A stretch of 64,000 nucleotides of DNA from a bacterium (GCA_022072055.1 JAJVIK010000011.1:62001-126000); one strand, 5' to 3'. Numbered from the stretch's first letter, positions 18,879 through 36,874 are shown. Numbers and translations are program-made. The notes: generated by a model not told the origin, from the letters alone.

Positions 18879-20683
18879 CAGAGCTTCTGAAATCCCTGCC
18901 GCAACACATCGAGGTCGTCTATGAAGAGCAACCCAGGGTGGAGACCCTGGTGGAATTGTTTCGATGGCGGGGATACCAACACCCCAAACGACTGGCCTTA
19001 TCATTCCTGCTTGAAGGATCGGAGACCGAGGTCACTCACTCCTATGGCGAGCTGGACTTGAGGGCGCGCGCCATCGCCGCGCGGCTTCAGGCGCACGGTA
19101 TGCAGGATAAGCCTGTCCTGATGCTGTTCCCGGCGGGTCTCGACTTTGTGGCCGGCTTCCTGGGTTGCCTCTATGGCGGCGCGGTTGCGATCCCTGCCTA
19201 CCCTCCACACCCGGCGCGGTTGGCCCGAGACCTGCCTCGAATCCGCGCCATCGCGCGGGATGCCCTTCCCGTGGCGGTGCTGACCGTCTCTTCGCTCCTC
19301 GAAAAGCGGGAGGAACTCTGCCGGCAGGCCCCCGAGCTCGGCACGCTCCCTTGGCTGGCCGCCGACAAGATCTCCGTTAATGGGGCAGAGGACTGGCTGG
19401 AAAGAGAGATCGATCCGGATTCTCTGGCCTTCCTCCAATACACTTCCGGGTCCACGGCCTCTCCCAGGGGGGTCATGGTGACTCACGGGAACCTCTTGCA
19501 CAATTCCTCCCTGATTCATGACTACTTCGAGACCGGAGAGGATTGCCGGGGTGTCTTTTGGCTTCCGGCCTACCATGACATGGGGCTGGTTGGCGGCATT
19601 CTCCAAGTCCTTTTTTGCGGAACTTCAGCGCTGCTGATGTCTCCGCTCGCCTTCCTTCAGCGCCCCATGCGGTGGCTGCAGGCGATTTCCAGAACCGGGG
19701 CGAACATCAGCGGGGGCCCGAACTTTGCTTACGACCTTTGTGCGCGCAAGGCCACCCCGGAGCAGATTGCGAGCCTCGATTTAAGCTGCTGGGAACTCGC
19801 CTTCAACGGCGCGGAGCCTGTGCGGGCGGATACCCTGGAGCGGTTCGCCAAGGTTTTTGAGCCATGCGGCTTCCGCTGGGAGGCGTTCTATCCGTGCTAT
19901 GGTCTGGCCGAAGGGACTCTGATTGTGTCCGGTGGAAAGCGCTCCGAGCCGCCGGTCATCCGACGTTTCGACGAGGAGGCGCTCAAGTGTGACCACGCCA
20001 TCGAGGTGGCCCCGGACCACCCCAGCGCGCGCACCTTGGTGGGGTGCGGCGAACCTCACCCCGACCAGGAGGTGGTGATTGTCGATCCGGACACCTCTGA
20101 AAGCCTCCCGGAGGGCCGCATCGGGGAGATCTGGGTGGCCGGGCCGAGCGTGGCGGCGGGCTACTGGAGGAAACCTGAGGAATCCGCCAAGACCTTCCAG
20201 GCCAGTCTGCGAGAGGCCGGGTCAGGACGGCACTTGAGGACGGGGGACCTTGGGTTCCTCAAGGATGGGGAGCTGTTTGTAACCGGGCGTCTCAAGGACC
20301 TGATCGTCCTGGAAGGACGCAACCACTATCCTCAGGATATCGAGCGGACAGTGGAAAGGGCGCATCCGACGCTGCGGGATGATTGCTCGGCGGTGTTCCT
20401 GGCGGAGATTGAGGGTCGCGAACGGCTGGTTGTGGTCGCCGAGGTGGAGCCGCGTTTCACCAAGCCCCGGATTGGAGACAACGGAAACGGACAAGTGTCC
20501 AAAGGGTGGGATGAAGCCGAAGTGGTCCGGATCATCCGTCGAGTCGTTTCCGAGATGCATGACCTTCAGGTCCATTCGGTCGTTCTCATCAAACCGGGGA
20601 GGATCCCCAAGACCTCCAGCGGCAAGATCCAGCGTCACGCCTGCCGCGCCGCCTTCCTGGAAGGAAAACTCGAACGGATTTAG
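18875..20683 (+). CDS. fatty acyl-AMP ligase (FAAL)
   Basis: 602 residues, ANL superfamily. The P-loop-like A3 motif is YTSGSTASPRGVMVTHGNL (from residue 189). WLPAYHDMGLVGG (residues 229-240), the FAAL hallmark HDMGL, is followed by ELAFNGAEPVR and FYPCYGLAEGTLIVSGG, both typical of FAAL rather than acyl-CoA synthetases; the C-terminal lysine block is KTSSGKIQRHACR. FAALs form acyl-adenylates from free fatty acids and transfer them to an ACP phosphopantetheine rather than to CoA. The PKS gene, starting nine bases downstream, begins with an ACP, the expected acceptor. GTG start; no upstream in-frame start was found. Confidence 0.93.
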   Translation: MTELLKSLPQHIEVVYEEQPRVETLVELFRWRGYQHPKRLALSFLLEGSETEVTHSYGELDLRARAIAARLQAHGMQDKPVLMLFPAGLDFVAGFLGCLYGGAVAIPAYPPHPARLARDLPRIRAIARDALPVAVLTVSSLLEKREELCRQAPELGTLPWLAADKISVNGAEDWLEREIDPDSLAFLQYTSGSTASPRGVMVTHGNLLHNSSLIHDYFETGEDCRGVFWLPAYHDMGLVGGILQVLFCGTSALLMSPLAFLQRPMRWLQAISRTGANISGGPNFAYDLCARKATPEQIASLDLSCWELAFNGAEPVRADTLERFAKVFEPCGFRWEAFYPCYGLAEGTLIVSGGKRSEPPVIRRFDEEALKCDHAIEVAPDHPSARTLVGCGEPHPDQEVVIVDPDTSESLPEGRIGEIWVAGPSVAAGYWRKPEESAKTFQASLREAGSGRHLRTGDLGFLKDGELFVTGRLKDLIVLEGRNHYPQDIERTVERAHPTLRDDCSAVFLAEIEGRERLVVVAEVEPRFTKPRIGDNGNGQVSKGWDEAEVVRIIRRVVSEMHDLQVHSVVLIKPGRIPKTSSGKIQRHACRAAFLEGKLERI

Positions 20684-20692: not shown

Positions 20693-23600
20693 ATGAGCTG
20701 GGAACCGGATCCATCGGAGTTGAATCCGCCATCCGAACCGTACGCCCGTGGGAACCCCTCACCGCGCGCCCCGCGGCGCCCGACAGCTGCGGAGATTCAG
20801 GACTGGCTGGTGGCCAAGCTCGCCCAGGAGCTCGAGATCGATCCCCGGGATATCGATGCGCGCGAACCATTTTCCACCTATGGGCTGAGCTCGGTCCTCG
20901 CGGTCAGCCTTTCCGGGGACTTGGAAGACTGGCTGGGCCGTCCCCTCTCACCCACACTCGCTTTTGACTATCCCTCGATAGAGGCGCTTGCGGGACACCT
21001 TTCCGGCGAGTCCGATCCCACCACGCGCCAAGATGTAGCCTCGACCGGTTTCCGCGCGGACAAGGAGGCTGTCGCGCTTGTGGGAATCGGGTGTCGCTTT
21101 CCCGGGGCCAATGGCCCCAGGGCCTTCTGGGAGCTCCTATCCGAAGGTCGCGATGCCATCACGGAAGTCCCGCCGGATCGTTGGGACGCCGAGAGTCTCT
21201 ATGATCCCAACCCGGACACACCTGGAAAGATGAACTCCAAATGGGGGGGATTCCTCCAGGGAGTGGATCAGTTCGACGCCCGCTTTTTCGGAATCTCCCC
21301 GAGGGAGGCCGCGCGCATGGACCCGCAGCAGCGACTCCTGCTCGAGGTCGGTTGGGAGGCGCTCGAGGATGCCGGGATCGTGCCCAAGGAGCTTTCCGGC
21401 ACGGCCACCGGGGTCTTCATGGGGGTCAGCACGAACGATTATCTGAGGCTGTTGCTCACCACGGACGAAGGCGCGCACGATGATCCCTATTCCGGAACCG
21501 GCGCCGCCGCCGGGATCGCCTCGGGCCGCCTCTCATACGCCCTCGGCCTTCAGGGACCGACCCTCACCGTGGACACCGCCTGCTCCTCTTCGCTGGTCGC
21601 GGTGCACCTTGCAATCCGAAGCCTCCTCTCGCGCGAGTGCGATACCGCGCTCGCCGGGGGCGTCAATCTGATCCTTGTTCCCGAAAGCACGGTCTATTTT
21701 TCCAAAGTCCGGGCGATGTCGCCGGAAGGTCGCTGCAAAGCCTTTGACGCCTCCGCGGATGGGTATGTCCGTTCGGAAGGCTGCGGCGTGCTGGTCCTCA
21801 AGCGCCTCGCTGACGCGCTAGCTCAAGGCGACCGTGTTTACGCGGTCTTGAGCGGCTCGGCGGTGAATCATGATGGGCGCAGCGGAGGCCTGACAGTCCC
21901 CAACGGTCAGGCCCAGCAGAGAGTCATTCGCGCCGCGCTTGCGGATGCCGGGGTGGATCCGCTCGATGTGGGTTATGTCGAGGCGCACGGGACCGGGACC
22001 TCCCTCGGCGATCCCATCGAGGTCCGCGCACTCGCCTCGGTCCTCTGTGAGAACCGTCACCCCTCGGCGGCGCTGGCCATCGGGTCGGTCAAGACCAACA
22101 TCGGCCATCTGGAGGCCCCTTCCGGAGTGGCGGGATTGATCAAAGTCGCCCTTGCCCTTCAGCACCGAGAAATTCCCCCGCACCTCCACCTCCGCAGACG
22201 GAATCCGCATGTCGAATGGGACCAACTGCCGATTTCCATCCCCACCGAGCGGACTCCGTGGAAGCCAGTGCACGGGAAGCGAATCGCGGGGGTCAGTTCC
22301 TTCGGGTTTAGCGGCGCCAACGCCCATGTGGTGGTTGCGGAGGCCCCAGAGCCTCCCCCTGCCGTTCACGATCCGGCAGCCCAGGCGGAGGCGTTTTTCC
22401 TACCGCTCTCGGCGCGAAGCGAGACCGCGCTGCAGAAAATTGCGGAGCAGTTCCACGATATCTTGTCCCAATCGGAAATCCAGCTCCGGGACATCTGCCA
22501 CACCTGCGCCGCCCGAAGGGAGCACCATGACCACCGCCTCGCGGTTTTCGGAAAGACGCGGGAGGATTTGACTGCGCGCTTGAAGAGCTTCCTCGCGGGA
22601 GAGTCGGAGAGGCAAGGAGTCCGGTCCGGAAAGGTCCCCACCAACCACACTCCGCGGTTAGGATTCCATTTCCCGGATGTTGGCCCCTCCTGGAGTGAGT
22701 TCACAACTTCTCTCCGACACAGCTCCCGTGAGTTTGATGCGGTGGTGTCGCTTGCTAAATCGGAGGCGGGCCGATACGCCAATGTCGCCCCGATCAGCCG
22801 CCGCCATGTCGATCCGCCGGTGGAGGGATTTCCGAACCCCGAGACCGCCTTCTGCGCCTATCAGATCGCGCTGGCCAATCACCTGCGGGCGCATGGGGTG
22901 ATCGTGGAAACTTTCCACGGAGAGGGGCTGGGCCAAATCGCGGCGGACTGTCTGGCCGGGAAGCTCACTCTTCAGGAGGCGATCCGGGTGGCGGCATGCG
23001 GTGAACGTCCCCACATCGAGCCTGGACGCTCCGCCACGCGTGAAACCGATTGGGCGCGCAGTCGCTGTGACCTCTTCGTCCGGATCGGGCCGCGCCAGGA
23101 TTCCCAAGAGGCTCCCCCGCGGGGAAAAGGCGGCAGGTCGAGACCCCTTGAGCTGGATTTCTCCTCGGATCTTCCCAAGGCCGTACCTGCTGATCTGCTT
23201 GCCACATTGTATTGCGCCGGGTTTCCAATCCACTGGAACAGCCTCTGGCCTCACGGGGGCCGGCATGTCGATCTCCCGACCTACCCCTGGGACCACGAGC
23301 GCCACTGGATTGAGCCATCCGGTGATGGATGGTCCGCTCGTTCCCGGGATCCTCGTTTCGGTCGAGCGGTCGAACTCGCCGGATCTCCCGGCTCATTTGT
23401 CTGGGAGGCGGGCCTCGATGGAAGACTCCTGGAGCGGATGGGATTGAACGGCCGCGCGAGGATCAAGGACCTGTCGCCTTCAATGGTCGAGCGGGTGGCG
23501 GAAACCGCCGCTCTTGAAACCCTCAAGCGCGACTTGAGAGTCACCAACCTCCGGCTCACGGGGGAGGCGATTTCTCCACCCTCGGCGGCGGACCCGGTCC

Positions 23601-25774
23601 TCCAAGTGGCGCTATCATCGGTTGAAGGTGGCGCGGGTTTTCGCCTATACAGTCGCTCCACAAACGGCCATCCGGGGGCGGGAATATGGGCCCTCTTGGC
23701 CGAGGGAAACCTGTGCGAGGAAGCCGGCGCCGACGGTACGAGCCACCAGTGGTTCCACGAAGTTGTCTGGGAGCACAAGCCGATTCAGGGGGGGGCCGGA
23801 TTGGACCGGGGACGAGTTTCTCTGGTCTTCTCCGATGATTCTGGGGTGAGCAGCGCGTTTCTGCGTCAACTCGGAACCGCGAACTTGATCCGGGTCCGGC
23901 GCGGCGAAACGTTCCAGCGACCTTCGGAAATGGAGTTTGAGATTTCGCCCTCCGATCCGAGCCACTTTGGTCGTCTACTGGCGGAGGTCCATGCCTCAGG
24001 CGCAAGCCCGGTTCGGGATATCGTGTTTCTCTGGGGTCTCGATCTCCCGGGGTCCGGCGGCGTAAATGCACCCACTTTTGAGAAGTCCTTGGCCGAGCGC
24101 CTGGCCGAGGCTCTCCATTTGATCCAAGCCTGCATACGCGCTGGAACGAAGCAGGCCCCGAGGCTTCGATTCGTGACTCGCGGCGCGGTTCACACCGGGG
24201 TTGCGGAGGACGAGGCGGTAGAACCCGCGCAAGCGGCCTTGATGGGACTCACACGCGCCCTGGCGGGGGAACACCCGGCGCTCTGGGGCGGCCACATCGA
24301 CCTTGATCCCAGCATGAGTCCGGAGCGGACGGCGGCAATTCTCGCACGTGAAATCGACTGCCTCGATGGCGAGGACCGCGTGGCTTTGCGCGGGAGTGAA
24401 CGCCTCGTGGCGCGTTTGATTCCGTGCTCCCTTGGCGAGGAGACTAGCGACTCCGTTGTTCCGCTCGGGAACCGCGTTTGCCTGATCACCGGCGGGATGG
24501 GGGAAATCGGCCGAGAGCTCGCACGTTGGTTTGCGCGACGCGGGGCCAGGCGGATTGTCCTCTTGGGACGAACGCCGGCGCCCGCAAGGGTTGAGTGGAA
24601 TGCCATTCCGGAAGGACACCCCCGGAGGGAACTGGTTGAATCCTTGATGGAGATTGAATCGCATGGCGCGGAGGTTCGCTGTGTGGCGGCGGATGTCGGC
24701 GATATGGCCTCCATGCAACACGCGCTTGAGGAACTTGCGCGCGAGGGGTGGGATAGCTTCGGTGGAGTGGTTCACGCGGCTGGGGTCGCCGATCCCAAAC
24801 CGCTGCTTGAATTGGACCGGGACACCCTGGCGAAAACTCTCCACCCCAAAGTCTCCGGCGCCCTGATCCTCGCGGACCTCCTGAAAAACCACCCACTTGA
24901 GTTCTTCGTTTTGTTCTCGTCCGGCGCGGCGGTCCTAAACTCACCGCTCCTGGGCGCGTACTCGGCGGCGAACTGTTTTCTCGACGCCCTCCCTCAATCC
25001 CTGGGACAAACGGGAATTCGAGCCACCAGCATCGCCTGGGGGTTCTGGAGCGAGGTTGGTCTGGCCGCGCGCTATCGGCGTGAGGGGGGGAGGGGCTTGC
25101 TACCGCGCGGGATGGAACCGATTGAACCGAGCGAAGGGTTACGAATCTTCGGAGGGATTCTCCGGGAGCGCCCAAAGCAGGTTGTGGTCATGCCGATCGA
25201 TTGGCGTGCATGGGGGGATTTCCACCGCCGCGTGGGAGGGAGCGCCCCTCTGCTTGAGAAGGTGTTGGCGGGTGCACGCGCGGAGCGTGGAGGCGACGCT
25301 CAAGAGGGCAGGGAAAGGTCCGGGGCGTTGGAGCGCCTGATGGGCGCGCCCTCCGAACAACGGCGCGCCCTTCTGGAGGATATCCTCGCCGACCAGGTCG
25401 CCGCGATTCTTGGATTCTCCCCCGCGCGCATGGACCGGGCGCAGCCGCTCGACAATTTGGGAATCGACTCCCTGATGGCGGTGGAGCTCAAGAACTGGGC
25501 GGAATCCGAGCTGGGCATCCTGGTTCCGGTCAGCCTGTTCCTGGAGGGACCGAGCCTCACCGATCTGGTCACCCGGCTTCTGCCGGATGTTCTCGCCACG
25601 ATCTCCTCGCGAAGCGGGAATCCTCCAAGGCATCCCTCCGCTCGCCCGAATGAGGAGACGCGAGACATCATCACTCCCGAAAGAGCCGAAAAACTTCTCT
25701 CCGAACTGGATGGTCTTTCGGATGAGGAGGTCGAGCGCCTCCTTGGAAGCCTCGCCTCCCAGCAAGAATCGTAA
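20693..25774 (+). CDS. type I PKS: ACP-KS-(dead AT)-(dead DH)-KR-ACP
   Basis: 1,693 residues. ACP1 (about 25-100): GLSSVLAV, Ser67. KS (about 118-545): Cys297 in DTACSSSLVAV, His432 in EAHGTGTSLGDP and His472 in TNIGHLEA, a full catalytic set. AT-like region (about 655-880): GFHFPDVGPSW replaces the usual FPGQGSQ, and the GHSxGE nucleophile motif reads GEGLGQ (743-748), so Ser is Gly745; the segment from there to FVRIGP is much shortened, while the post-AT motif VDLPTYPWDHERHWIE remains. DH-like region (about 885-1020) lacks HxxxGxxxxP. KR (about 1260-1470): TGGMGEIG, Ser1410, Tyr1423, Asn1427 intact. ACP2: GIDSLMAVEL, Ser1593. Hence chain extension, if any, needs malonyl delivered in trans. 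Confidence 0.93.
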   Translation: MSWEPDPSELNPPSEPYARGNPSPRAPRRPTAAEIQDWLVAKLAQELEIDPRDIDAREPFSTYGLSSVLAVSLSGDLEDWLGRPLSPTLAFDYPSIEALAGHLSGESDPTTRQDVASTGFRADKEAVALVGIGCRFPGANGPRAFWELLSEGRDAITEVPPDRWDAESLYDPNPDTPGKMNSKWGGFLQGVDQFDARFFGISPREAARMDPQQRLLLEVGWEALEDAGIVPKELSGTATGVFMGVSTNDYLRLLLTTDEGAHDDPYSGTGAAAGIASGRLSYALGLQGPTLTVDTACSSSLVAVHLAIRSLLSRECDTALAGGVNLILVPESTVYFSKVRAMSPEGRCKAFDASADGYVRSEGCGVLVLKRLADALAQGDRVYAVLSGSAVNHDGRSGGLTVPNGQAQQRVIRAALADAGVDPLDVGYVEAHGTGTSLGDPIEVRALASVLCENRHPSAALAIGSVKTNIGHLEAPSGVAGLIKVALALQHREIPPHLHLRRRNPHVEWDQLPISIPTERTPWKPVHGKRIAGVSSFGFSGANAHVVVAEAPEPPPAVHDPAAQAEAFFLPLSARSETALQKIAEQFHDILSQSEIQLRDICHTCAARREHHDHRLAVFGKTREDLTARLKSFLAGESERQGVRSGKVPTNHTPRLGFHFPDVGPSWSEFTTSLRHSSREFDAVVSLAKSEAGRYANVAPISRRHVDPPVEGFPNPETAFCAYQIALANHLRAHGVIVETFHGEGLGQIAADCLAGKLTLQEAIRVAACGERPHIEPGRSATRETDWARSRCDLFVRIGPRQDSQEAPPRGKGGRSRPLELDFSSDLPKAVPADLLATLYCAGFPIHWNSLWPHGGRHVDLPTYPWDHERHWIEPSGDGWSARSRDPRFGRAVELAGSPGSFVWEAGLDGRLLERMGLNGRARIKDLSPSMVERVAETAALETLKRDLRVTNLRLTGEAISPPSAADPVLQVALSSVEGGAGFRLYSRSTNGHPGAGIWALLAEGNLCEEAGADGTSHQWFHEVVWEHKPIQGGAGLDRGRVSLVFSDDSGVSSAFLRQLGTANLIRVRRGETFQRPSEMEFEISPSDPSHFGRLLAEVHASGASPVRDIVFLWGLDLPGSGGVNAPTFEKSLAERLAEALHLIQACIRAGTKQAPRLRFVTRGAVHTGVAEDEAVEPAQAALMGLTRALAGEHPALWGGHIDLDPSMSPERTAAILAREIDCLDGEDRVALRGSERLVARLIPCSLGEETSDSVVPLGNRVCLITGGMGEIGRELARWFARRGARRIVLLGRTPAPARVEWNAIPEGHPRRELVESLMEIESHGAEVRCVAADVGDMASMQHALEELAREGWDSFGGVVHAAGVADPKPLLELDRDTLAKTLHPKVSGALILADLLKNHPLEFFVLFSSGAAVLNSPLLGAYSAANCFLDALPQSLGQTGIRATSIAWGFWSEVGLAARYRREGGRGLLPRGMEPIEPSEGLRIFGGILRERPKQVVVMPIDWRAWGDFHRRVGGSAPLLEKVLAGARAERGGDAQEGRERSGALERLMGAPSEQRRALLEDILADQVAAILGFSPARMDRAQPLDNLGIDSLMAVELKNWAESELGILVPVSLFLEGPSLTDLVTRLLPDVLATISSRSGNPPRHPSARPNEETRDIITPERAEKLLSELDGLSDEEVERLLGSLASQQES

Positions 25775-25776
25775 GA

Positions 25777-28700
25777 ATGCCCGAGTCTCAAGAACCCACC
25801 ACGGCAACCCCAAGGGACAAGCGCGCCCAGCTTGCCGAACTCCTCCGCGAGCGCGCCTCGCAGGCCTGGAGGGACACCGACCTCTCCGAAGGGCAGCGCG
25901 CCCTGTGGCTCCTGCAGCGACTGGCTCCCGACAATGTGGCCTACAATCTGATGGCCTCGGCCCACATCCGCGGATCACTGGATGTCGGCGCGCTGAGACG
26001 GGCCTTTCAAGCCCTCACGGACCGTCATGAGTCTCTCCGCACCACTTTCCCTGAACGCGAGGGCGCCCCCTTATGTCGCATTCATTCGTCGTCCCAGGTG
26101 GCCTTCGTGGAGATTGAAGGGAGTTCCTGGAGCGAGGAGGAACTGCGAGGGTGGATGGAGGCGCAAGCCGATGAGCCGTTTGACCTCGGGGCGGGTCCGT
26201 TGTTCAAGACAATTCTCATCCATCGTGGGTCCCGGGACCCGGTTCTTCTGGTGCTGGCCCACCATATCATTCTCGATTTCTGGTCGATTGACCTCCTCCT
26301 TGAGGAACTCCGTCTTCTCCATGCGCGGGAATTGGGGATCCCCGTCGAGGTCCCCCCGATCGCCGGAGTCTTCAGCGAGTATGTCCAGTGGCAGAGGGGA
26401 TATCTTGGCGGATCGGAATTTCAGACCTCACTGGACTACTGGGAAGGAGTGATCGGGGATTGCCCTCAAATCCTTGATCTTCCCACCGATCGCCCGCGGC
26501 CGAATGTTCAAACCTACCGCGGGGCGCTCCACGAGTTCGACCTTGAAATCTCTCTGACCGCGCGCTTGAGGGAGCTTGCCAGAGCCGAGGGGGTTACTCT
26601 GTACACCCTTCTGCTCTCCGCTTTTGAGATCTTCATTCACCGCTTTTCCGGGCAGTCGGAGTTCCTTGTCGGAACACCGGTTGGAGGCAGGACTCGCGCG
26701 GAGTTTGAGACGGTTGTGGGCGACTTCGCCAACCCGATTTGTCTTCGGGCGGATTGTTCGGGGAATCCCTCGGTACGGGAGCTCCTCGACCGGACGAAAC
26801 CAAAGGTGCTCGAGGGACTGACCCATCAGGGAGTTCCCTTTCCACGGGTGGTGGAACGTCTCCAGCCGCGACGAGACCCCAGCCGGTCCCCGCTCTTCCA
26901 AGTGGCTTATGTGTGGAACCGCGCACGCCATCTGGAGGCCGGAGTCGGGGAGGGAGCGGCGCGCGCATGGTCCCTCGAACCGTTTGTCCACTGCCAGCGT
27001 GGAGCGCCCTTCGACCTCACCCTTTCCGTTGTGGATCGGGGGGCTTTCTTGTCCGCCGCCTTCCAGTACAACAGCGACCTGTTCCGCTCCTCCACGGCCG
27101 CCGATTGGGCCGAGCGTTTCCGGATGCTCCTCGAAGGCATTCTCTCGAATCCCGGCGGGCGAGTTTCCGAACTGTCACTTCTCTCCGAGGGGGAGCGTCG
27201 GTTCTTCCTGGTGGACTGGAATCGAACGGAGATGGAGTACCCCAAGGACCGCTGCGTGCAGGAGTTGATCGAGGGGCGAGTGGCGGAATCTCCCGAAGCC
27301 TGCGCTCTGGAGTGGCGGGGAGGGGCGATGTCCTACTTCGAGTTGAATCGGATGGCGAATCGCCTTGCCTGGCGTCTCAAGGAACTTGGGATCGGCCCGG
27401 AGCGGCTTGTGGGAATCTGTCTCCCACGCTCCCCCGAGATGATGATCGGAATTCTCGCGGTCCTGAAGGCGGGTGGGGCCTATCTCCCGCTCGATCCGGA
27501 ATACCCGGAGGAACGTCTGGCCCTGATGCTCGAGGATGCCCACGCGGAGGTGGTCCTGAGCACCAGGAGCCTTGGCCCGAAGCTTCCGACGAGTGGGCGC
27601 GCGATCTTGCCCCTGGATGATCCCACGCTGTTCGAGACCGGGAACGATGCCGCCCCGCCCTGCGAGGCGAAGGCCGAGAACCTGGCCTATGTCATCTACA
27701 CCTCCGGTTCCACCGGGAGACCCAAGGGGGTGATGATCACCCACCGGAACCTGATGAATTACTTGTGGTGGTGCCGGAGCGCTTACCCGCTTCAAGAGGG
27801 GTCGGGCGCGCCGCTGCATTCCCCCATCCGCTATGATTTGACCGTGACCACCTTATTCGCGCCGCTCCTGAGCGGTGGAAGGATTGTGCTAGTCCCGGAG
27901 CGTCGCGGTGTGGATGACCTGGCGGCTGTGATCGCCGAGGGCCGGGATTTCAGCTTTGTGAAGGTGACTCCCGCGCACCTCAAGGCTCTCGGGGCGATTC
28001 TGCCCAAGGCCGAGGCCTCAAATCAGACACGCTGTCTGGTGGTTGGCGGCGAGGCCTTGCACTCGGATTCGCTTGCCTACTGGAGAGAGCATGCCCCCGG
28101 GACCCTGATTGTGAACGAGTATGGTCCCACCGAGGCGACGGTGGGCTGTTGCGTGTATTCCTTGCGCGCGGGAGCGGAGATTTCAGGCCCGGTCCCCATC
28201 GGAAGGCCCATCGCGAACACAAGGCTGTATGTCCTTGATGTCCACGGGCAACCGGTCCCGCCCGGAGTTCCGGGTGAACTCCATATCGGCGGAGATAGTG
28301 TGGCGCGCGGCTATCTGAATCGACCCGACCTAACCGCCGAGAGGTTTGTGCCTGATCCTTTCAACCGTGATGCCGGCGCGCGCCTGTATCGCACGGGCGA
28401 TCTGGTGAGGTTCCGCGCGGATGGCGAGCTCGAGTATCTGGGACGATCCGACCATCAGGTCAAGGTGGCGGGACAACGGATCGAGCTGGGCGAATTGGAG
28501 ACCATCCTCGGCGGGCATCCGGAGGTGCGCGATGCACTCGTGGCGGCGGTCGAAACAGCGCCGGGCGATAGGCGCTTGGTGGCCTACGTGGTCCCCAAGA
28601 GTTGGGTGGATGGTCCGTCCCCAGCCGAGCTCCGCGCGTTCCTACGCCAAAAACTACCCGAAACCATGCTGCCGGCATTCTATGTCACGCTTCCGGGCTT

Positions 28701-31134
28701 CCCCCTGGCCGCGAACGGAAAGGTGGATCGGAAGGCCCTCCCGATTCCGGACCAAGGCCGCGGTGGGGCCGACACGGCCTATGTGGCTCCCCGAAATGAG
28801 ATCGAACGCGCCTTGGAGGAGATTTGGTCTCGGGTTCTGGGGATCGAGCCGATTGGAGTCCAGGACAATTTCTTCGACCTGGGGGGGGCCTCGATCCAGA
28901 GTCTCGCAGTGGCTTCGCAAGCGAGCGAGGCGGGGATTCCGCTCACCGCGGAAATGATCTTTCAGCATCCGACCATCGCGGAACTCGCGACGGCATCGCG
29001 CGTGGCCAGCCTCGATGCGCATCGCGAGACCCCCGCCCTTCCAAAGCCATCCACGCGCCAGGTTGAGGCGACGGGAACGAGGCAAGCGGCGCGCCCGGGC
29101 TCGCGGGTTTCAACGGGTCGGACCGCGATTGAAAGCTTGGGGGTTTATCTTCCAGCCCGGAAAGTCGCCACGGGGGACCTTTTGCGCGGCTGTCGGAACC
29201 CGATCGATTTCCCGCTGGAGAAAATGACCGGAATCCGCTCGCGTCGCGTGGTGTCCGAAGGGGAGTACTCGATTGACCTTGCCGAACAGGCGGCCCGTGA
29301 CTGCCTGCTTCGGTCACGGAGAAGTCCGGAGGAGATCGACCTCCTGATCTGCTGCAACATCTCGCGGCAGGATGGACCCCGCCAGTTCAGCTTCGAGCCG
29401 ACCACCTCGGTGCGACTCAAGAAACGGCTTGGATTGCCCAACGCCGTCGCGTTTGACATCAGCAATGCCTGCGCGGGGATGTTCACCGGCATCTTGATCG
29501 CCGACTGGTTGCTGGCGGCGGGCGCGATGAGCGCGGTTCTGGTGGTGAGCGGGGAATACATCTCGCATCTTGCCGAGACCGCCCAGAAGGAGATCTCCGG
29601 ATTCCTCGACCCGCGCTTGGCGTGCCTGACCGTGGGGGATGCCGGCGCCGCGGTGATCTTGGAGCGGAACGAGCGCGAGGACATCGGCTTCGCGGACCTC
29701 GATCTCTACACTCTCGGCAAATACAGCGACCTGTGCGTGGCCAAGGCGACCGAGGAGGCGCATGGCGGGGCAATCATGTACACCGATTCGATCCGTCAAA
29801 CCGCCGTGGCCCTTAAACTCTCGGTGGCCCACTCGGCGAAGGTGCTGCGGAGGAGCGGCTGGTCCGCCGAGGAGATCGGTCATGTCATCATGCACCAGAC
29901 CTCGGAGACCGCGCTGCGGGACGCCATGCGGGAGATCAACGCGCTCTATGGCGCGAAGGTCTGTCATGATGGAAACACCGTGATTAACCTCGCCGAGCGC
30001 GGTAACACAGCGAGCACCAGCCACTTTGTGGCGCTGGCGGACCGCATGCGAGCCGGCGAGGTCCGGAATGGCGACCGAGTTGTGTTCGGAATCACCGGAT
30101 CGGGCCAGACCATCGGCTCCTCGCTTTATGTGATGGATGATTTCCCCGCGCGGTTTCTCGAGTCCGGCAACGGGACCCCCTCGGGGAAGCGTGCCGCGGC
30201 TTCGGTCGAGCGGGCCACGCGCGTCTTTTCCACAACCGGAGCAGGCTCGGCGGAGATCCTCGCGGTCGGGCTTGCGAGGGAGCCCAAGGATTCTCCAGGG
30301 GATGCGGTTGAACTTGCGGTCGAGGCGGCCGAATCGGCCCTTATCAGCGCGGGCTTGGATCGCAATCGGGCGGACCTGGTGATCCATTCGGGGGTTTATC
30401 GCAACGATTTTCTCTGCGAGCCGGCCATCGCCTCGATCGTGGCGGGAAGACTCGGGATCAACCACGAGGAGGGTTCCGCACCAGGGCAGTCCACCTTTGC
30501 CTTCGACCTTCTTTGCGGCGGTCTGGGATTCCTTTCCGCCTGTTACGCCGCGACCCAGGCGATTCGCTCAGGCAGAGGGAAGCATGTCTTGATCACCGCT
30601 TCGGAGATCGAAAACAACGCGGGGGTCTTTCCGGAGCGCCTCCGTGGAGTGGTCGAAACCGGCTCAGCGGTTTTGCTTGCGCCCGCCACGGAGAAGCGCG
30701 GCGGATTCCGCGCCTTCGCCTTTCGAGATTTCCCCGATTACGCCGATCTGCTTGTGGCGCACACCGGGCTGGAGGCGGGGAAGACTTACCTCCATTTTGA
30801 GGAGTCGCCATCCTACCCGGCCCGGCTTCGGGAATCGATCTGCATCGTGGTCAAGGATCTGTTGGATCACGAGGGATTGACTCCGTATGAGATCCGGGTC
30901 GTGCTTCCGCCGCTTGTATCCGAGACCTTTGTTTCCGAGCTTGCCGCCGACCTGAAGGTGGACCGGGATCGGATGATCGGCCAACCGACTCCGGGCAAGG
31001 ATGGATTCACCTCGTCCCTTGCGCGAGGTCTCGACGAGGTTCGTCGGAAGGGCCTGGCGGGTTCAGGGGAGATCGGACTGTTCATCGGCGCGGGCGCGGG
31101 CATCCAAGTCGGCTGCGCGCTGTATGTCTTTTAA
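25777..31134 (+). CDS. NRPS C-A-PCP fused to tandem KAS III-like domains
   Basis: 1,785 residues, two bases after the PKS stop. C domain (about 30-460): HHIILDFWS at 162-170, an intact HHxxxD. A domain (about 480-1000): YTSGSTGRPKGV from 641; specificity residues D687 L688 T691 K729 V755 G757 E781 V789 G790 K982 give DLTKVGEVGK, the asparagine pattern. PCP (about 1005-1070): DLGGASIQS, Ser1039. After a linker, KAS III-1 (about 1115-1460) has Cys1232 (SNACAG), His1373 (MHQTS), Asn1410 (RGNTAS), a full FabH-type triad. KAS III-2 (about 1480-1785) has Gly1582 where the catalytic Cys should be (Cys at 1580 instead) and lacks the His and Asn. No thioesterase or reductase ends the protein. Asn use and carbon-carbon release are predictions. 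Confidence 0.92.
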   Translation: MPESQEPTTATPRDKRAQLAELLRERASQAWRDTDLSEGQRALWLLQRLAPDNVAYNLMASAHIRGSLDVGALRRAFQALTDRHESLRTTFPEREGAPLCRIHSSSQVAFVEIEGSSWSEEELRGWMEAQADEPFDLGAGPLFKTILIHRGSRDPVLLVLAHHIILDFWSIDLLLEELRLLHARELGIPVEVPPIAGVFSEYVQWQRGYLGGSEFQTSLDYWEGVIGDCPQILDLPTDRPRPNVQTYRGALHEFDLEISLTARLRELARAEGVTLYTLLLSAFEIFIHRFSGQSEFLVGTPVGGRTRAEFETVVGDFANPICLRADCSGNPSVRELLDRTKPKVLEGLTHQGVPFPRVVERLQPRRDPSRSPLFQVAYVWNRARHLEAGVGEGAARAWSLEPFVHCQRGAPFDLTLSVVDRGAFLSAAFQYNSDLFRSSTAADWAERFRMLLEGILSNPGGRVSELSLLSEGERRFFLVDWNRTEMEYPKDRCVQELIEGRVAESPEACALEWRGGAMSYFELNRMANRLAWRLKELGIGPERLVGICLPRSPEMMIGILAVLKAGGAYLPLDPEYPEERLALMLEDAHAEVVLSTRSLGPKLPTSGRAILPLDDPTLFETGNDAAPPCEAKAENLAYVIYTSGSTGRPKGVMITHRNLMNYLWWCRSAYPLQEGSGAPLHSPIRYDLTVTTLFAPLLSGGRIVLVPERRGVDDLAAVIAEGRDFSFVKVTPAHLKALGAILPKAEASNQTRCLVVGGEALHSDSLAYWREHAPGTLIVNEYGPTEATVGCCVYSLRAGAEISGPVPIGRPIANTRLYVLDVHGQPVPPGVPGELHIGGDSVARGYLNRPDLTAERFVPDPFNRDAGARLYRTGDLVRFRADGELEYLGRSDHQVKVAGQRIELGELETILGGHPEVRDALVAAVETAPGDRRLVAYVVPKSWVDGPSPAELRAFLRQKLPETMLPAFYVTLPGFPLAANGKVDRKALPIPDQGRGGADTAYVAPRNEIERALEEIWSRVLGIEPIGVQDNFFDLGGASIQSLAVASQASEAGIPLTAEMIFQHPTIAELATASRVASLDAHRETPALPKPSTRQVEATGTRQAARPGSRVSTGRTAIESLGVYLPARKVATGDLLRGCRNPIDFPLEKMTGIRSRRVVSEGEYSIDLAEQAARDCLLRSRRSPEEIDLLICCNISRQDGPRQFSFEPTTSVRLKKRLGLPNAVAFDISNACAGMFTGILIADWLLAAGAMSAVLVVSGEYISHLAETAQKEISGFLDPRLACLTVGDAGAAVILERNEREDIGFADLDLYTLGKYSDLCVAKATEEAHGGAIMYTDSIRQTAVALKLSVAHSAKVLRRSGWSAEEIGHVIMHQTSETALRDAMREINALYGAKVCHDGNTVINLAERGNTASTSHFVALADRMRAGEVRNGDRVVFGITGSGQTIGSSLYVMDDFPARFLESGNGTPSGKRAAASVERATRVFSTTGAGSAEILAVGLAREPKDSPGDAVELAVEAAESALISAGLDRNRADLVIHSGVYRNDFLCEPAIASIVAGRLGINHEEGSAPGQSTFAFDLLCGGLGFLSACYAATQAIRSGRGKHVLITASEIENNAGVFPERLRGVVETGSAVLLAPATEKRGGFRAFAFRDFPDYADLLVAHTGLEAGKTYLHFEESPSYPARLRESICIVVKDLLDHEGLTPYEIRVVLPPLVSETFVSELAADLKVDRDRMIGQPTPGKDGFTSSLARGLDEVRRKGLAGSGEIGLFIGAGAGIQVGCALYVF

Positions 31135-31142: not shown

Positions 31143-32132
31143 ATGCGAGCCTTTGTGACTGGGGCAACGGGTTTCCTGGGATCGAATCTCGCGGTGGGCT
31201 TGGTGGAGCGAGGGATAGAGGTTCGCATTCTTCGGCGTCCGACCGGCGGCGCCGAGGCGCTGCAAGGAGCGCGGATCGAGGAGACCACCGGGGACATCCT
31301 CGATCCTCCGGAGAAACTTGCCAGGAGCATGGAGGGTTGCGAATGGGTTTTCCATGTGGCGGCCTCGGTGAAGTACGGAAGGAGTCCGAGGGAGCTTTAC
31401 CGGACCAATGTGGAGGGAACAGCCCATGTGGCGGAGGCCGGGCTTCTCGCCGGAGTTGGGCGGTTTGTGCTGACCAGTTCCCTGAGCGCGATGGGGGTTG
31501 CCGAGGGGGGCCGACTGCTGGATGAGGACTCAGAATTCAGCCTAAGCCCCAGCGAATTCCCCTACGGCCACACGAAACGCCTGGCCGAGGATGAGGTTCG
31601 AAAGCGGATTGATAGGGGGTTGTCCGCGGTAATTGTCAACCCATCCACGATGTTCGGTCCCCGAGATGTCCGCCGCAACGCCGGGGCGATGGTCATTCAG
31701 GCGGCCTCCGGCACCTTGAGGTTTTACCCTCAGGGCGGCTCGAATTTCGTGGCTGTGGAGGATGTCGTGTGGGGTCACATCGCGGCGGCGGAGAGGGGAA
31801 GGGTGGGACAGCGATACATCTTGGGGAATCGGAACCTGACCTACCGGGAGGTTTTTGAGCGAATTTGCGAGGTGGTCGGGGTTCCTCCGCCTCGCTGGCC
31901 GATCCCCAACGCGATCCTCCCGGTTGGGGCGTGGGGCGCGCAGCTGCTGTCGTGGATTCGTCCGGGACTGCTTCCGGTCGATCCCAACCAAATTCGGATG
32001 TCCGCGCGCTGCATTTACGCGACCTCCGAGAGGGCGATCCGAGAGCTCGGACTGCCGCAATCCCCATTGGAGGGGGCGATCCGTCGCGCCCACGAGTGGT
32101 ATCAACAGAACGGCTATTTGAGGAAATCATGA
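31143..32132 (+). CDS. NAD(P)-dependent extended SDR, OleD/3-beta-HSD-like
   Basis: 329 residues. Rossmann motif TGATGFLG near the N-terminus, an active-site Ser in LTSSLSAMG, and the YxxxK pair Tyr141/Lys145 (YGHTKRLAED). The C-terminal half (NPSTMFGPRD, FVAVEDVVWGHIAAAERG, GQRYILGNRNLTYREVFERI) matches the 3-beta-hydroxysteroid dehydrogenase/OleD type of extended SDRs, which reduce long-chain beta-ketones, rather than sugar epimerases. Lying eight bases after the NRPS/KAS III gene, its natural substrate may be a ketone made by the KAS III domain, as OleD follows OleA in olefin synthesis; inference. Confidence 0.85.
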   Translation: MRAFVTGATGFLGSNLAVGLVERGIEVRILRRPTGGAEALQGARIEETTGDILDPPEKLARSMEGCEWVFHVAASVKYGRSPRELYRTNVEGTAHVAEAGLLAGVGRFVLTSSLSAMGVAEGGRLLDEDSEFSLSPSEFPYGHTKRLAEDEVRKRIDRGLSAVIVNPSTMFGPRDVRRNAGAMVIQAASGTLRFYPQGGSNFVAVEDVVWGHIAAAERGRVGQRYILGNRNLTYREVFERICEVVGVPPPRWPIPNAILPVGAWGAQLLSWIRPGLLPVDPNQIRMSARCIYATSERAIRELGLPQSPLEGAIRRAHEWYQQNGYLRKS

Positions 32133-33790
32133 ACCGATTGGCAACCGCGCTCTTGTTTTTTGCCGTGAATCTCCCCGTTGCAGCTCAGGCCACCGAGCTT
32201 GGGGTCTCGAATGGCGCGATCAAGGCGATGACCGCCACCATCGATGGCCCCTACGACCCAACCGGGACTAACCGCTGGCGACTCGGGGTCGGTGCGCATC
32301 TCCGGATTCGGGATCGGACTCAAGATTCCAGTGAGAGCCTAAAGGTCGTCGAGGCGCCGGTGGATGTGCAGTGCGGCGCGGGAGGGATCCTGTACGCCAG
32401 CGGCGGTTTTGTGATCGACATCACCAGGGCCGGCGGGGTTCGCTACCGCTTTCCCAGGAACCACCCGAGCTTCAGCCAGAACGCCGGGGTCCCCAACCCG
32501 AGCCGCATGGTCTTCTCGAAATCCCAGCCCCCCGAAAAGGCCGCGGGCAACTGGGTGGCCCTCTTGGGAGATCAGGTCCTGATCCGCGGGATGGCCAGCG
32601 CGCAGGCCATACACCCGGCCACCCCGGAGGGGCTGGAGACACTGGTTTCGGTGAGCGGTTACACCTCCGAAAGCCGTGTTCTTTCCGACCTCAGGACCCT
32701 GCTCCAATTTGATGGAAACCCATTCCCGTTCTGGCGCGCGGCCCGCGCCGACCTGGACAGCGAGGAGCGCGCGGTCAAAGGGTTGGTCATCCCGGAGGAT
32801 CGCGTGGGCGCGGAAGCGTATCGAGCCTACCAGGTCGAAACATTGGCGGGGCTGTCCAAGATTCGCGAAGGCTATCGCATGCTCCAGCGCAACCTCTATA
32901 GCGACAAGGTCCTCGATAAGATGGTAACCGAGGGGGTCCCGATTCCACGACTGACCCTGGCCGAAGTGAGCTTTGTCCGGGGTGACATGGCCTTTTCCAT
33001 CCGGCCATTTGTGAACTGGAAGTTGGAAGGACGGGTCCTTGTGGACCGTTCGCGATTGGTGGCGAGCGAGCCTCGGAAGCGGGAGGTGGCCCCGACCGTG
33101 TTCGTGGTGGATGACCTGACCAACCGCATGTTGGAAGACACCCGGATCGTGATCGGATCGCGGGATGCGGTCATCGAGAGTCGGCGCCCGGGAAACACCG
33201 CCTGGACAGCGCGCGCCCCGATCCAGTTTGATTTCGATTGGGAGCGTTTTTTCACCCCCTCGGCGGAGGTCTTCGGGTTTTCCGAGCAGCTCGACGCGAC
33301 AGGCTTCCTCTTGCGGCGGGAGATCTCCGGTGGAGGAGTTTTGGAGATGAGCGAGCTGTTCCTCTCCAAGACCCTGCTTGAACTACGTTATCTTCCGCGC
33401 TCCGATAGGAAACCCGCCGAGGAGCAGATTCGGAAGTACATGGACCTGCGTCGAACGATCCTTTACCCGGATCGGAGGGAGCGCTTGGCTCTCCTTCCGA
33501 CTCGTTTTCGCGAAGGGCAAGTCTCCGAATTTCTCAGCGATGGCCTGGACCATCTGGCCGCCGCAATCCATGCTCAAGGGATGAAGGAAGTGGTCGGCCT
33601 GAACCTGTGGGTCCGCAACGATCCTCCCAAGCAGTGGACCCTGGAGATGGAGGCAATCGGCCCGGCCGGGGAGCGAGTGATGGTTTCTCGCGCGGCGGAG
33701 CTCCCCGATGCGCCCCCGCTGGAGGACTCCTGGAAGAAGCTGGATCGCAACCGCGCCATCACCGGATGGCTTGACCTCGAATGGGAGTGA
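32129..33790 (+). CDS. exported protein of unknown function in the lipopeptide-type operon
   Basis: 553 residues; ATG overlaps the SDR stop (ATGA). Signal peptide MNRLATALLFFAVNLPVAAQ. The rest has no recognised domain or transmembrane helix; the secondary-structure impression is beta-rich N- and C-terminal parts with helical stretches in between (about residues 230-300). The last third has RRTILYPDRRERLALLPTRF. Being translated with the ABC exporter, it might be a periplasmic partner or carrier of the exported product, but there are no HlyD/LolA/lipobox features to support that. Function unknown. Confidence 0.8.
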   Translation: MNRLATALLFFAVNLPVAAQATELGVSNGAIKAMTATIDGPYDPTGTNRWRLGVGAHLRIRDRTQDSSESLKVVEAPVDVQCGAGGILYASGGFVIDITRAGGVRYRFPRNHPSFSQNAGVPNPSRMVFSKSQPPEKAAGNWVALLGDQVLIRGMASAQAIHPATPEGLETLVSVSGYTSESRVLSDLRTLLQFDGNPFPFWRAARADLDSEERAVKGLVIPEDRVGAEAYRAYQVETLAGLSKIREGYRMLQRNLYSDKVLDKMVTEGVPIPRLTLAEVSFVRGDMAFSIRPFVNWKLEGRVLVDRSRLVASEPRKREVAPTVFVVDDLTNRMLEDTRIVIGSRDAVIESRRPGNTAWTARAPIQFDFDWERFFTPSAEVFGFSEQLDATGFLLRREISGGGVLEMSELFLSKTLLELRYLPRSDRKPAEEQIRKYMDLRRTILYPDRRERLALLPTRFREGQVSEFLSDGLDHLAAAIHAQGMKEVVGLNLWVRNDPPKQWTLEMEAIGPAGERVMVSRAAELPDAPPLEDSWKKLDRNRAITGWLDLEWE

Positions 33791-33797
33791 GACCAAC

Positions 33798-34508
33798 TTG
33801 AGTTCCGAACCGAAGGCTCCGGAAACCCCCACGATTATTTCGCTGGAGGGGGTTCACAAGTCCTATCGCAACGGTGGGCAATCGATTGAAATCCTGCGTG
33901 ACCTTTCGCTACAGATCGCGCGCGGGGAGGCGGTGGCCATTCGAGGCGTGTCCGGCTCCGGAAAATCAACGCTCCTCAATGTGGTTGGGGCCATCGACTC
34001 GGTGGACTCCGGCACGGTGACCGTGCGCGGAAAGCGTCTGGATGGAGCAAGCTCCGCGGACCTCACCGCCTTTCGCGCGAGCGAGGTGGGGTTTATCTTC
34101 CAGTTCTACAATCTGCTCCCCACGCTCACAGTCCGGGAGAATGTGGCGGTTGGGTTGGAGGCCGCTGGGGTTTCCCTCTCGGCGGGCCGAGCCAAGGTTG
34201 CGGAGTACCTCGAGGCGGTCGGCCTCTCCGACAAGGCGCGGAAATTTCCCGAACAGCTCTCCGGCGGCGAGCAGCAGCGGGTCGCCATCGCGCGCGCGTT
34301 GGTCAAAGAGCCGCCGCTGGTCCTCGCCGATGAACCGACCGGAAGCCTGGATGAAGAGACCGGGGTTCGGATTCTCGAACTCCTCAATCACCTCCAGCGC
34401 GAACTCCATCTCAGTTTTCTCCTGGTCACCCACAATCCCGCGATCTCGGATTACACCGACCGGACCCTGTTCCTCCACAACGGTCGTTTGTCGTCCGATC
34501 CCTCCTGA
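33798..34508 (+). CDS. ABC transporter ATP-binding protein (LolD/MacB type)
   Basis: About 236 residues. Walker [10 protein letters not shown] (Lys56), Q-loop in [17 protein letters not shown], signature [15 protein letters not shown] (about 153), Walker [14 protein letters not shown] (about 174) and the switch histidine in LLVTHNP. The sequence is of the LolD/MacB/FtsE branch that drives FtsX-type permeases. The start is TTG at 33798; no ATG gives a shorter N-terminus, and a longer in-frame start at 33708 overlaps the previous gene. It is eight bases from each neighbour and pairs with the next gene. Confidence 0.95.
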
Positions 34509-34516: not shown

Positions 34517-36874
34517 ATGAAACTCCTCCTCGCGCATGTTTGGCGGAGCGCGCTCCGCATTCGGTTCCGACTGCTCGCGGTCAGTCTCGTGGCCGCCTGC
34601 GGGTTCGGCATCTATGTGGGGGTCTATTCGGCCATCGAGAGCGTGATCCTCGAACAGCGGCGACAGTTCCGCGAGGGGAATATCGCCGACCTGGATGTGC
34701 GTTTCGCGCCGGAAGACCAGACCCTCCTTCCGGACTTTTCGGATATCGAGGGGATTGAACAGGTCGAGCCGCGCCTCGTGTATCCGGGGAGGATTTCGCT
34801 CGCCGAGGGGGAATCGCTCACTTCCCTGTTGGTCACTGTTGATCCCGGGGTTGGGGGCCGAATCAACAAGGTCACCCTCCTGGAGGGCAAGGCGCTCGAT
34901 TCCGCCGATCCGGAAGGAGTCCTCATCGACCGTAATCTGGCCCGTTATCATGGTTTCAAGGTGGGCGACCGTTTCGAGCTCCTGATGGCGGATGAAGTCT
35001 ACTCCCTCCACATTGTGGGAATCGGGGTCAGCCCGGAGTTCCTGATGGCCCCGGCCAATCCGAAGGTGTTTATCCCGGCCAAGGGGTCGCTGGGGATCCT
35101 CTTCGCGCATCCCGCGCTGATCGAGGCGCGAGTCGGCATCCCGATGGTCAACAGCCTCTTATTCAAGTTCCGAGGGGGTGGCGACGGAAGGGAGATCCAA
35201 CGCGCGGTTGTGGAGCGCGTGGAAGGGGCGCTGGCCTACGATGTGGCCCTGCCGCTCTCCGAGCAGTTCGGATTCCGCTTCCTCGACCTGAACATCAAGG
35301 CGTTCAAAATCTTTCTCCCTTCGCTGGTCGTGGTGTTTGACCTCACCGCGTTCCTCGTGACCTTCTTCTTGAGCTTTCAGTGGATCGAACAGGAGCGGCA
35401 GCAGATCGGGGCGCTGATGGCGCTGGGCTATCCGAAGCGGAAGATCGCGGGAGCCTATCTTTTCGCGACCCTGATCATTGCCGCGGTCGCGCTCCTGGCC
35501 GGATTCGTCTTGGCGCACTTCACCGCGCGGAATTTCGCGGTTCATTTCGCGGGTTCGCTCGGATTTCCCGCGCCGGATGTGGTCCTCGACATCGGGCATG
35601 CCCGCAAGGGGGTGTTCGGCCTGATTTTGGTTCTGGCTATGGCGAGCGCCTGGCCGCAAGCCTGGCTCCTGAGGCTCTCGCCACTTGAGGCGGTGCGCGA
35701 CACCGGGCGGTCCCTGGAGGGGCGGATCGGTTCGTTCGGCGCGCTGATTTCCGCCCTCCCCGGACCGGTCTGGTTCCGCTATGGGGTTCGGAACCTGATC
35801 CGGAACAGGGCCCTCTCGCTGTTCACCGCCGCGGCGGTGGGCATGGGCCTTGGGGTGACTGTTTCGTTCTTTATCGCGCTCACTTCAAGCTCCCAGACCT
35901 CGATTCGTTGGACTGCCAAGGACCCCTGGCAGGGACTGGTGGATTTCTTTGCCCCAGTGGGGATCCGGGAACTCGATGACTTCCGAGCCATCCCCGGCGT
36001 GAAGGATGTGGCCCCTTACGCCAAACAGGCAGGGGTGATCGTGGGACCCAAGGGGGACGGTAACATCTACATGCTCGGCATTCCTCCCGGAGAAGGGTTG
36101 CGGAATCCGCAGATCCTCGAAGGAAGGACCCTGGAGCGTGGCGATACGGATCAGGTGATTGTCGAGAAGAACCTGGCCGAGAAGCTGGGCATCGCCCTGA
36201 ACGGCCGGGCCACGATTCAGGTTCTGGGGCGCCGCAAAGAGGTCACAGTGGTGGGGCTGCTTTCGGGCGCGCTCCCGGGGGAGTGCTATGTTCCGCTCGC
36301 CCTCGCCCAGGAGGTGACCGATAGTTCCGGGACTTGTTCGGGGATGTTCTTGCTCACGGATGGGGATCCCGAGGCGGTCAGGAGGGCCCTCTACGCCAAA
36401 GGCAACATCTCCCAGGTGACCCTCAAGACCGAGATCGTGGAGCAAATCCTTTCAACCACGGGTGAGAAATGGGTCATTCTGCGCCTGGGTTCTCTGTTTT
36501 CCATTGGGATCGCGATCCTGTTCATGTTTTGCAGCGTGTCGTTCACCATCCTGCACCGCAAGCCGGAGTATCTGATGCTGCGAATCATCGGGTTCTCGAA
36601 CCGGATTGTGGCGGGGACAGTCCTCGCGGAGGTGGTGGTCCTGGGGCTGGGGTCGGTGGCGCTGGCGATTCCCATCGGGGTCGGGACCGCGACCTTTCTG
36701 ACCGCGCGGATGTCGGAGGCGTGGTTCACCGTGGAGGTTCTCGCCGAGGCCCCGGATTTCCTCAAGGTTCTGATTCCCGGATTCTTCCTGATGCCCTTCG
36801 CGGCGGTCTCGGCGATTCGGGGAATCCTCCGCGAACCGCTGGAGAAGAGCCTGAGGGAGAGGCGGTGCGGGTGA
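34517..36874 (+). CDS. ABC transporter permease with two FtsX domains
   Basis: 785 residues with an N-terminal helix (LRIRFRLLAVSLVAACGFGI), a periplasmic MacB-like domain (about 40-250), then FtsX helices (about 265-400, with QQIGALMALGYPKRKIAGAY as cytoplasmic loop), a second N-terminal-like helix and periplasmic part (about 415-640), and a final FtsX block (about 655-775, KPEYLMLRIIGFSNRIVAGT). This duplicated layout means one polypeptide can serve as the whole permease for the neighbouring ATPase. Relatives export lipoproteins, lipids, glycolipids or peptides; here the candidate cargo is the product of the upstream assembly line. Confidence 0.9.
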   Translation: MKLLLAHVWRSALRIRFRLLAVSLVAACGFGIYVGVYSAIESVILEQRRQFREGNIADLDVRFAPEDQTLLPDFSDIEGIEQVEPRLVYPGRISLAEGESLTSLLVTVDPGVGGRINKVTLLEGKALDSADPEGVLIDRNLARYHGFKVGDRFELLMADEVYSLHIVGIGVSPEFLMAPANPKVFIPAKGSLGILFAHPALIEARVGIPMVNSLLFKFRGGGDGREIQRAVVERVEGALAYDVALPLSEQFGFRFLDLNIKAFKIFLPSLVVVFDLTAFLVTFFLSFQWIEQERQQIGALMALGYPKRKIAGAYLFATLIIAAVALLAGFVLAHFTARNFAVHFAGSLGFPAPDVVLDIGHARKGVFGLILVLAMASAWPQAWLLRLSPLEAVRDTGRSLEGRIGSFGALISALPGPVWFRYGVRNLIRNRALSLFTAAAVGMGLGVTVSFFIALTSSSQTSIRWTAKDPWQGLVDFFAPVGIRELDDFRAIPGVKDVAPYAKQAGVIVGPKGDGNIYMLGIPPGEGLRNPQILEGRTLERGDTDQVIVEKNLAEKLGIALNGRATIQVLGRRKEVTVVGLLSGALPGECYVPLALAQEVTDSSGTCSGMFLLTDGDPEAVRRALYAKGNISQVTLKTEIVEQILSTTGEKWVILRLGSLFSIGIAILFMFCSVSFTILHRKPEYLMLRIIGFSNRIVAGTVLAEVVVLGLGSVALAIPIGVGTATFLTARMSEAWFTVEVLAEAPDFLKVLIPGFFLMPFAAVSAIRGILREPLEKSLRERRCG

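Follow-up and report, generated by a model that had tools for sequence, protein, structure and literature searches.

How does a nonribosomal peptide synthetase (NRPS) that ends in two domains resembling β-ketoacyl-ACP synthase III (KAS III) let go of its product? Chain release determines the product of an NRPS, and hydrolysis, cyclisation and reduction are the usual ways in which release domains achieve it. The question is raised by a bacterial stretch of 64,000 nucleotides (GCA_022072055.1 JAJVIK010000011.1:62001-126000; hereafter the window, meaning the whole stretch analysed), which encodes a protein with the order condensation (C), adenylation (A), peptidyl carrier protein (PCP), KAS III, KAS III (Table 1). 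Behind the PCP of this 1785-aa protein, a Pfam scan showed neither a thioesterase nor a reductase domain. A preliminary description, made from the sequence alone, had proposed that the chain is released by formation of a carbon-carbon bond, and the evidence collected here supports this as the likely mode of release. We propose, with a probability of roughly 60%, that the last 680 residues form a one-chain counterpart, acting in cis, of the LstA-LstB and NltA-NltB pairs, that is, an OleA-type pair, which releases the chain by a non-decarboxylative Claisen condensation, and that a short-chain dehydrogenase/reductase (SDR) then reduces the product. The observations behind this proposal are the architecture of the protein, its invariant residues, the phylogeny of its two halves, its gene neighbourhood and its fold.

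The fusion of two KAS III-like domains to an NRPS, claimed in the preliminary description, was confirmed by the Pfam order and by structure prediction. Pfam matched ACP_syn_III (residues 1226-1312), ACP_syn_III_C (1357-1451) and a second ACP_syn_III_C stretch, and each domain, queried alone, matched solved FabH-type enzymes in the PDB (E 2e-25 for domain 1 and 1.9e-10 for domain 2). AlphaFold modelling of 677 residues with a 41-row alignment predicted a KAS III fold for each of the two domains of the chain (pLDDT 89.7, pTM 0.93) rather than a different fold, and with such a pTM for a two-domain chain the relative placement of the domains is confident. A Foldseek search with this model returned FabH, PqsD, BioZ and OleA at TM 0.78-0.91 by target length, a comparison that does not separate FabH from OleA.

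Residue conservation was counted over 70 aligned tandems (the window copy and 69 others). Cys1232, His1373 and Asn1410 of domain 1, placed as in the preliminary description, were invariant. Domain 2, as also described there, lacks the triad: Gly1582 stands in its Cys column, which is mostly Ala, Ser or Gly across the tandems and never Cys; its His column is Pro, and its Asn column falls around Asp1742. Residue 1580 is Cys in the window copy and Asn in 67 of the 70 tandems, so that Cys1580 is a quirk of this copy. The earlier label of domain 2 as catalytically dead overlooks Glu1548, which is invariant, as is Glu1207 of domain 1; triad-less describes this domain better.

Both glutamates lie within a Glu-Pro motif at the column of Escherichia coli FabH Phe87 and OleA Glu117. 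In the alignment this column reads Glu-Pro in OleA, in the LstA/B-like and NltA/B-like proteins and in all tandems and split pairs aligned, and hydrophobic-Pro in FabH-type enzymes. In OleA, E117 is the general base and works across the dimer, and Glu-Pro is common to nearly all OleA proteins compared (PMC7064751). In LstAB, LstA carries C128/H271/N305 and the triad-less LstB has an essential E60 (PMC12141560). An lst-type cluster on a Streptomyces plasmid (genes for a KAS III, its small partner, members of the CoA-ligase and epimerase families, an NRPS and a formyltransferase) shows C132/H275/N309 in its LstA-like and E59 in its LstB-like protein, in these same columns. Because Glu1548 is invariant and matches the columns of OleA E117 and the essential LstB E60, domain 2 is probably not merely dead or space-filling, and is expected to supply a catalytic glutamate as LstB does.

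Phylogenetic analysis placed domain 1 in one clade with LstA, NltA-like proteins and the first-gene proteins of split pairs (support 99/95; 100/99 for the same clade in an earlier tree without LstA), and domain 2 in another (100/100) that holds LstB, NltB-like proteins and the second-gene proteins of split pairs. Both clades stand apart from FabH-type enzymes and OleA in two trees, and the fused form has a single origin per half (98/91 for domain 1 and 100/98 for domain 2 in the earlier tree). As each half groups with a different subunit of the split pairs, the tandem is most simply read from these trees as the fusion of a pre-existing heterodimer; a recent tandem duplication inside the NRPS was rejected on the same ground. 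The invariant Glu1548 at the LstB Glu60 column, together with the pairing of the halves with LstA and LstB, indicates by sequence comparison that the closest known enzyme is LstAB, the condensing heterodimer of lipstatin, a lipase inhibitor. The preliminary description had instead likened the pair to PqsC-PqsB. A complete half beside a triad-less half, here in cis after a PCP, is indeed the shared arrangement; PqsBC as the closest relative was rejected on Asn1410, the Glu-Pro motif and the phylogeny with LstAB.

A scan of one genome per species yielded 79 loci, with both halves in one open reading frame (ORF) at 69 of them. Members of the family occur in Actinobacteria, Planctomycetes, Lentisphaerae, Bacteroidetes and Acidobacteria at the least. 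Fusions of the tandem to C-A-PCP come from Mycobacterium, Mycolicibacter, Nocardia, Planctomycetes and one acidobacterium. Bacteroidetes have the tandem as an ORF of its own (about 670 aa), next to genes for a fatty acyl-AMP ligase (FAAL), a polyketide synthase (PKS) and an NRPS; in Deltaproteobacteria the KAS III pair is split over two adjacent genes. Every fused case examined has the tandem C-terminal, after a carrier protein. A misassembled junction between PCP and KAS III, the artefact foreseen in the preliminary description, was ruled out, as the same fusion recurs in many independent genomes of several phyla. Two loci (L027:4412-12007 and L043:4451-12004) encode FAAL-ACP-C-A-PCP-KASIII-KASIII* (the asterisk marking the triad-less domain; ACP, acyl carrier protein) as one protein of 2.5 kaa with a Gly-like A-domain code, apparently a self-contained lipo-amino-acid machine. 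Two others (L049:3875-9019 and L052:6956-12019) encode FAAL-ACP-KASIII-KASIII* without an NRPS; in these, about 200-300 residues between the ACP and the KAS III match no Pfam family. The nearest tandems to that of the window are mycobacterial (about 50% identical), and within the window's own phylum only its own genome carries the tandem among the 14 examined, a patchy distribution.

Ten Bacteroidetes genomes have OleB and OleC no more than about 20 kb from the tandem, and OleD was seen in nine of them; the ten clusters (L035, L061, L070, L113-L118 and L120) also hold FAAL, PKS and NRPS. Here, L113-L118 and L120 are extended contigs of L031, L051, L080, L040, L042, L073 and L047. No other OleA-like gene was seen in the stretches of these ten loci. 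In four of these genomes (G099-G102) the Pro is preceded by a hydrophobic residue in all other KAS III proteins found, and the tandem is therefore the sole OleA-type candidate found there; in the metagenome-assembled genome G098 a further Glu-Pro KAS III lies on a contig other than that of the tandem. The clusters L113-L118 and L120 all keep a gene for a luciferase-like monooxygenase, and most of them also carry a P450 gene; neither gene was seen beside the mycobacterial or window tandems.

Table 1. Features of the window on the NRPS-KASIII-KASIII* protein and its neighbours (residue numbers refer to the 1785-aa protein)
Feature	Position	Strand	Basis
Fatty acyl-AMP ligase (FAAL), predicted lipid-starter loader	18875..20683	+	NCBIfam FAAL models up to 447 bits
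Type I PKS, ACP-KS-(degenerate AT)-KR-ACP	20693..25774	+	Pfam
NRPS-KASIII-KASIII* protein, 1785 aa	25777..31134	+	single uninterrupted frame; Pfam order C-A-PCP-KASIII-KASIII
C domain, residues 36-475, motif HHIILDF	25882..27201	+	PF00668, 300.5 bits; motif
A domain, residues 501-982, code DLTKVGEVGK	27277..28722	+	PF00501 + PF13193 (AMP-binding 501-847, C-terminal part 906-982); TIGR01733, 456 bits
PCP, residues 1012-1072, Ser motif GGASIQSL	28810..28992	+	PF00550
KAS III domain 1, catalytic, LstA/NltA-like, residues 1116-1453	29122..30135	+	Pfam, PDB match, alignment, trees, AlphaFold
Glu1207 codon, domain 1, OleA E117 column	29395..29397	+	invariant 70/70
Cys1232 codon, nucleophile, domain 1	29470..29472	+	invariant 70/70
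His1373 codon, domain 1	29893..29895	+	invariant 70/70
Asn1410 codon, domain 1	30004..30006	+	invariant 70/70
KAS III domain 2, triad-less, LstB/NltB-like, residues ~1480-1785	30214..31131	+	Pfam, PDB match, alignment, trees, AlphaFold
Glu1548 codon, domain 2, OleA E117 / LstB E60 column; predicted base for domain-1 site	30418..30420	+	invariant 70/70
Gly1582 codon, Cys column of domain 2	30520..30522	+	family alignment
Extended SDR (3-beta-HSD/epimerase type), predicted ketoreductase of condensation product	31143..32132	+	PF01370, PF01073
Protein with signal-peptide-like N-terminus, no Pfam match	32129..33790	+	sequence, Pfam
ABC transporter ATPase	33708..34508	+	PF00005
FtsX-type permease, likely export partner	34517..36874	+	PF02687

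In the window, the genes for FAAL, PKS, NRPS-KASIII, SDR, the signal-peptide-like protein, the ABC ATPase and the FtsX permease form a same-strand run in that order. Counterparts of the SDR (49-53% identical) directly follow the NRPS-KASIII gene in 23 mycobacterial loci. The KS motif of the PKS is intact, and its acyltransferase (AT) domain (22610-23302) is shortened (21 bits vs a cut-off of 32.7), with GEGLG in place of GHSxG and the Ser lost; the mycobacterial and Bacteroidetes PKS homologues scanned have full AT domains. The window module would either depend on a trans-acting malonyl transferase or leave the chain unextended. The A-domain code of the window is one that we take to specify Asn, by published codes as generally known. 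That of Planctomycetes and Bacteroidetes is DILQCGMIWK (Gly-like), and most mycobacteria have DPWHCGLIDK.

From this material we infer which substrates are used, the direction and chemistry of the condensation, the passage of the chain from the PCP to Cys1232, the action of Glu1548 as base, the identity of the second substrate and the nature of the product, as follows. The first ACP of the PKS would receive a fatty acid from FAAL, the PKS would extend and reduce it, and the C domain would join the lipid to a PCP-bound amino acid (Asn predicted; Gly in relatives). The N-acyl-aminoacyl thioester would then move from the PCP to Cys1232. Domain 2 is predicted to pack on domain 1 like the second subunit of FabH or OleA, with Glu1548 reaching the domain-1 active site, where it would take a proton from the alpha-carbon of another acyl thioester (an acyl-CoA, most probably), while His1373 and Asn1410 would polarise the thioester carbonyl. 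The ensuing non-decarboxylative Claisen condensation would free the chain as a 2-alkyl-3-oxo-4-(acylamino) acid, the 3-ketone of which the SDR would turn into a hydroxyl, and the ABC/FtsX pair would export the product. In the Bacteroidetes relatives, OleC and OleB would convert a similar intermediate to a beta-lactone and then an alkene.

Several observations weigh against this proposal. The SDR falls below the OleD cut-off (NF042422, 92 vs 580 bits) and the HpnA cut-off (TIGR03466, 276 vs 368 bits), and the window's genome has no OleC at E <= 1e-40. In the other six Bacteroidetes loci OleC is missing, or its contig is a different or unresolved one. Aminoacyl donors are not general to the family, because in L049 and L052 the tandem follows FAAL-ACP without an NRPS; nor is the product one compound, because the A-domain code varies among lineages. 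Finally, no assayed enzyme of the fused type was found in the open-access literature.

Three other explanations were considered. The tandem could be a KAS III-like acyltransferase that forms a C-N or C-O bond by passing the chain bound to Cys1232 to an amine or a hydroxyl, in the style of AfcL or ChlB3/CerJ. AfcL does show that a KAS III can free a carrier-bound chain in a FAAL/NRPS pathway (PMC12186527), but its triad is Cys/His/Asp, whereas all 70 tandems have Asn. The Glu-Pro motif, the phylogeny with LstA and LstB and the clustering with OleB, OleC and OleD in Bacteroidetes likewise indicate Claisen enzymes, which makes an acyltransferase improbable.

Just as improbable is that the pair makes the lipid tail in trans from two acyl-CoAs before loading, so that the fusion serves co-localisation and another enzyme releases the chain. 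LstAB itself uses two acyl-CoAs (PMC12141560), FAAL-ACP-tandem proteins without an NRPS exist (L049, L052), and the split pairs of Deltaproteobacteria occur without any NRPS. Against this, the position of the tandem behind a carrier protein in all fused cases examined and the lack of a thioesterase domain in the window megasynthase argue for release, and the FAAL-ACP-tandem proteins fit a carrier-bound donor too. The malonyl route, a decarboxylative FabH/PqsBC-like condensation giving a beta-keto aminoacyl product, is on alignments and trees the less likely chemistry and a reading we hardly favour: Cys/His/Asn is also the FabH triad, FabH is the best sequence and fold match in the PDB, and PqsBC is a precedent for a catalytic half paired with a triad-less one (PMC4807248), but where the dimer is crossed FabH-type enzymes have Phe or another hydrophobic residue instead of Glu, the Asn is missing from PqsC, and domain 1 clusters with LstA and NltA rather than FabH.

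The split pairs were also found in other gene settings. Those of Deltaproteobacteria (L072, L075, L078, L081, L082) have no OleC, and most of them have genes for a conserved classical SDR and a methyltransferase close by. At L079 (with L076), split KAS III pairs flank a region of B12-radical S-adenosylmethionine (SAM), AFOR and thiamine pyrophosphate (TPP)-enzyme genes, and at L075:12067-15567 genes for a phosphoenolpyruvate (PEP) mutase-cytidylyltransferase, a TPP decarboxylase-like protein and a radical SAM protein adjoin the pair; a phosphonate link, considered for the PEP mutase and TPP enzyme at L075, was dropped, these genes not being conserved at the other loci. Split LstA/LstB-like pairs at L140:7923-9885 (Rhodococcus plasmid) and L124:3311-5354 (Mycobacterium) have genes for universal stress proteins, CBS-domain proteins and PEP synthase close by, which is not what surrounds secondary-metabolism genes.

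If a single-chain Claisen pair does end the window NRPS, the carbon-carbon bond formed at release would give the product a long alkyl branch. A broader proposal seems to us evenly poised: that this is a widespread, undescribed NRPS termination in which a fused LstA-LstB-type pair joins an N-acyl-aminoacyl-PCP and an acyl-CoA without decarboxylation, the resulting 2-alkyl-3-oxo-4-acylamino acids becoming hydroxy acids in mycobacteria and the window genome or, via OleC and OleB, amino-acid-derived beta-lactones and alkenes in Bacteroidetes. We found no description of the tandem family clusters, and none of an NRPS with a fused KAS III/OleA/LstAB-type pair in the open-access literature, subscription papers being outside the search. 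The tie of the Bacteroidetes clusters to beta-lactone and olefin enzymes suggests new hydrolase inhibitors or membrane lipids.

Among known systems, FabH provides the best PDB matches to the tandem, yet the Glu column (hydrophobic Phe87 in E. coli, against Glu1207 and Glu1548) and the trees set it apart from that family. PqsC-PqsB is alike as a heterodimer of catalytic and non-catalytic KAS III that mimics the FabH homodimer. PqsC has Val299 in place of the Asn, the substrate supplying the amino function (PMC4807248), whereas Asn1410 is invariant in the tandems; PqsBC was left out of the Glu-column comparison. AfcL of the AFC-BC11 pathway, a KAS III-like enzyme with a Cys/His/Asp triad, releases a carrier-bound lipopeptide by amide formation (PMC12186527); it shares with the tandem the fold, the lipopeptidyl chain taken off a carrier protein and the FAAL pathway, but is a stand-alone single KAS III with Asp as third residue. 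OleA, the thiolase that performs the head-to-head Claisen step of the olefin pathway, combines Glu-Pro at position 117 with Cys/His/Asn, as the tandem does, and a non-decarboxylative condensation is proposed for both. It is, however, a single-protein homodimer, only 23-26% identical, and domain 1 stays far under the cut-off of the OleA family model NF006720 (135 vs 285 bits).

Nearer still are the adjacent catalytic and triad-less KAS III genes of the nocardiolactone-type NltA-NltB pair in Nocardia amamiensis (L121), whose NltA-like protein is 36% identical to domain 1. These genes adjoin OleC- and OleD-like genes, unlike the window, which has no OleC, and they encode two proteins, with no NRPS or PKS and a lipid beta-lactone as product. 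LstA-LstB of Streptomyces matches the tandem in its Cys/His/Asn half and its triad-less half with an essential Glu; SDR and adenylating enzymes are nearby in both cases, the window having an SDR and no OleC. It differs in being two proteins that act on two acyl-CoAs (PMC12141560), whereas the window has one chain; because the halves are fused behind C-A-PCP, the donor there is probably an aminoacyl-PCP. The fused chain fixes the role of each half, which would make it useful for testing the part of LstB-type partners in catalysis. Each component belongs to a familiar type, the novel variation being their union in one chain at the end of an NRPS.

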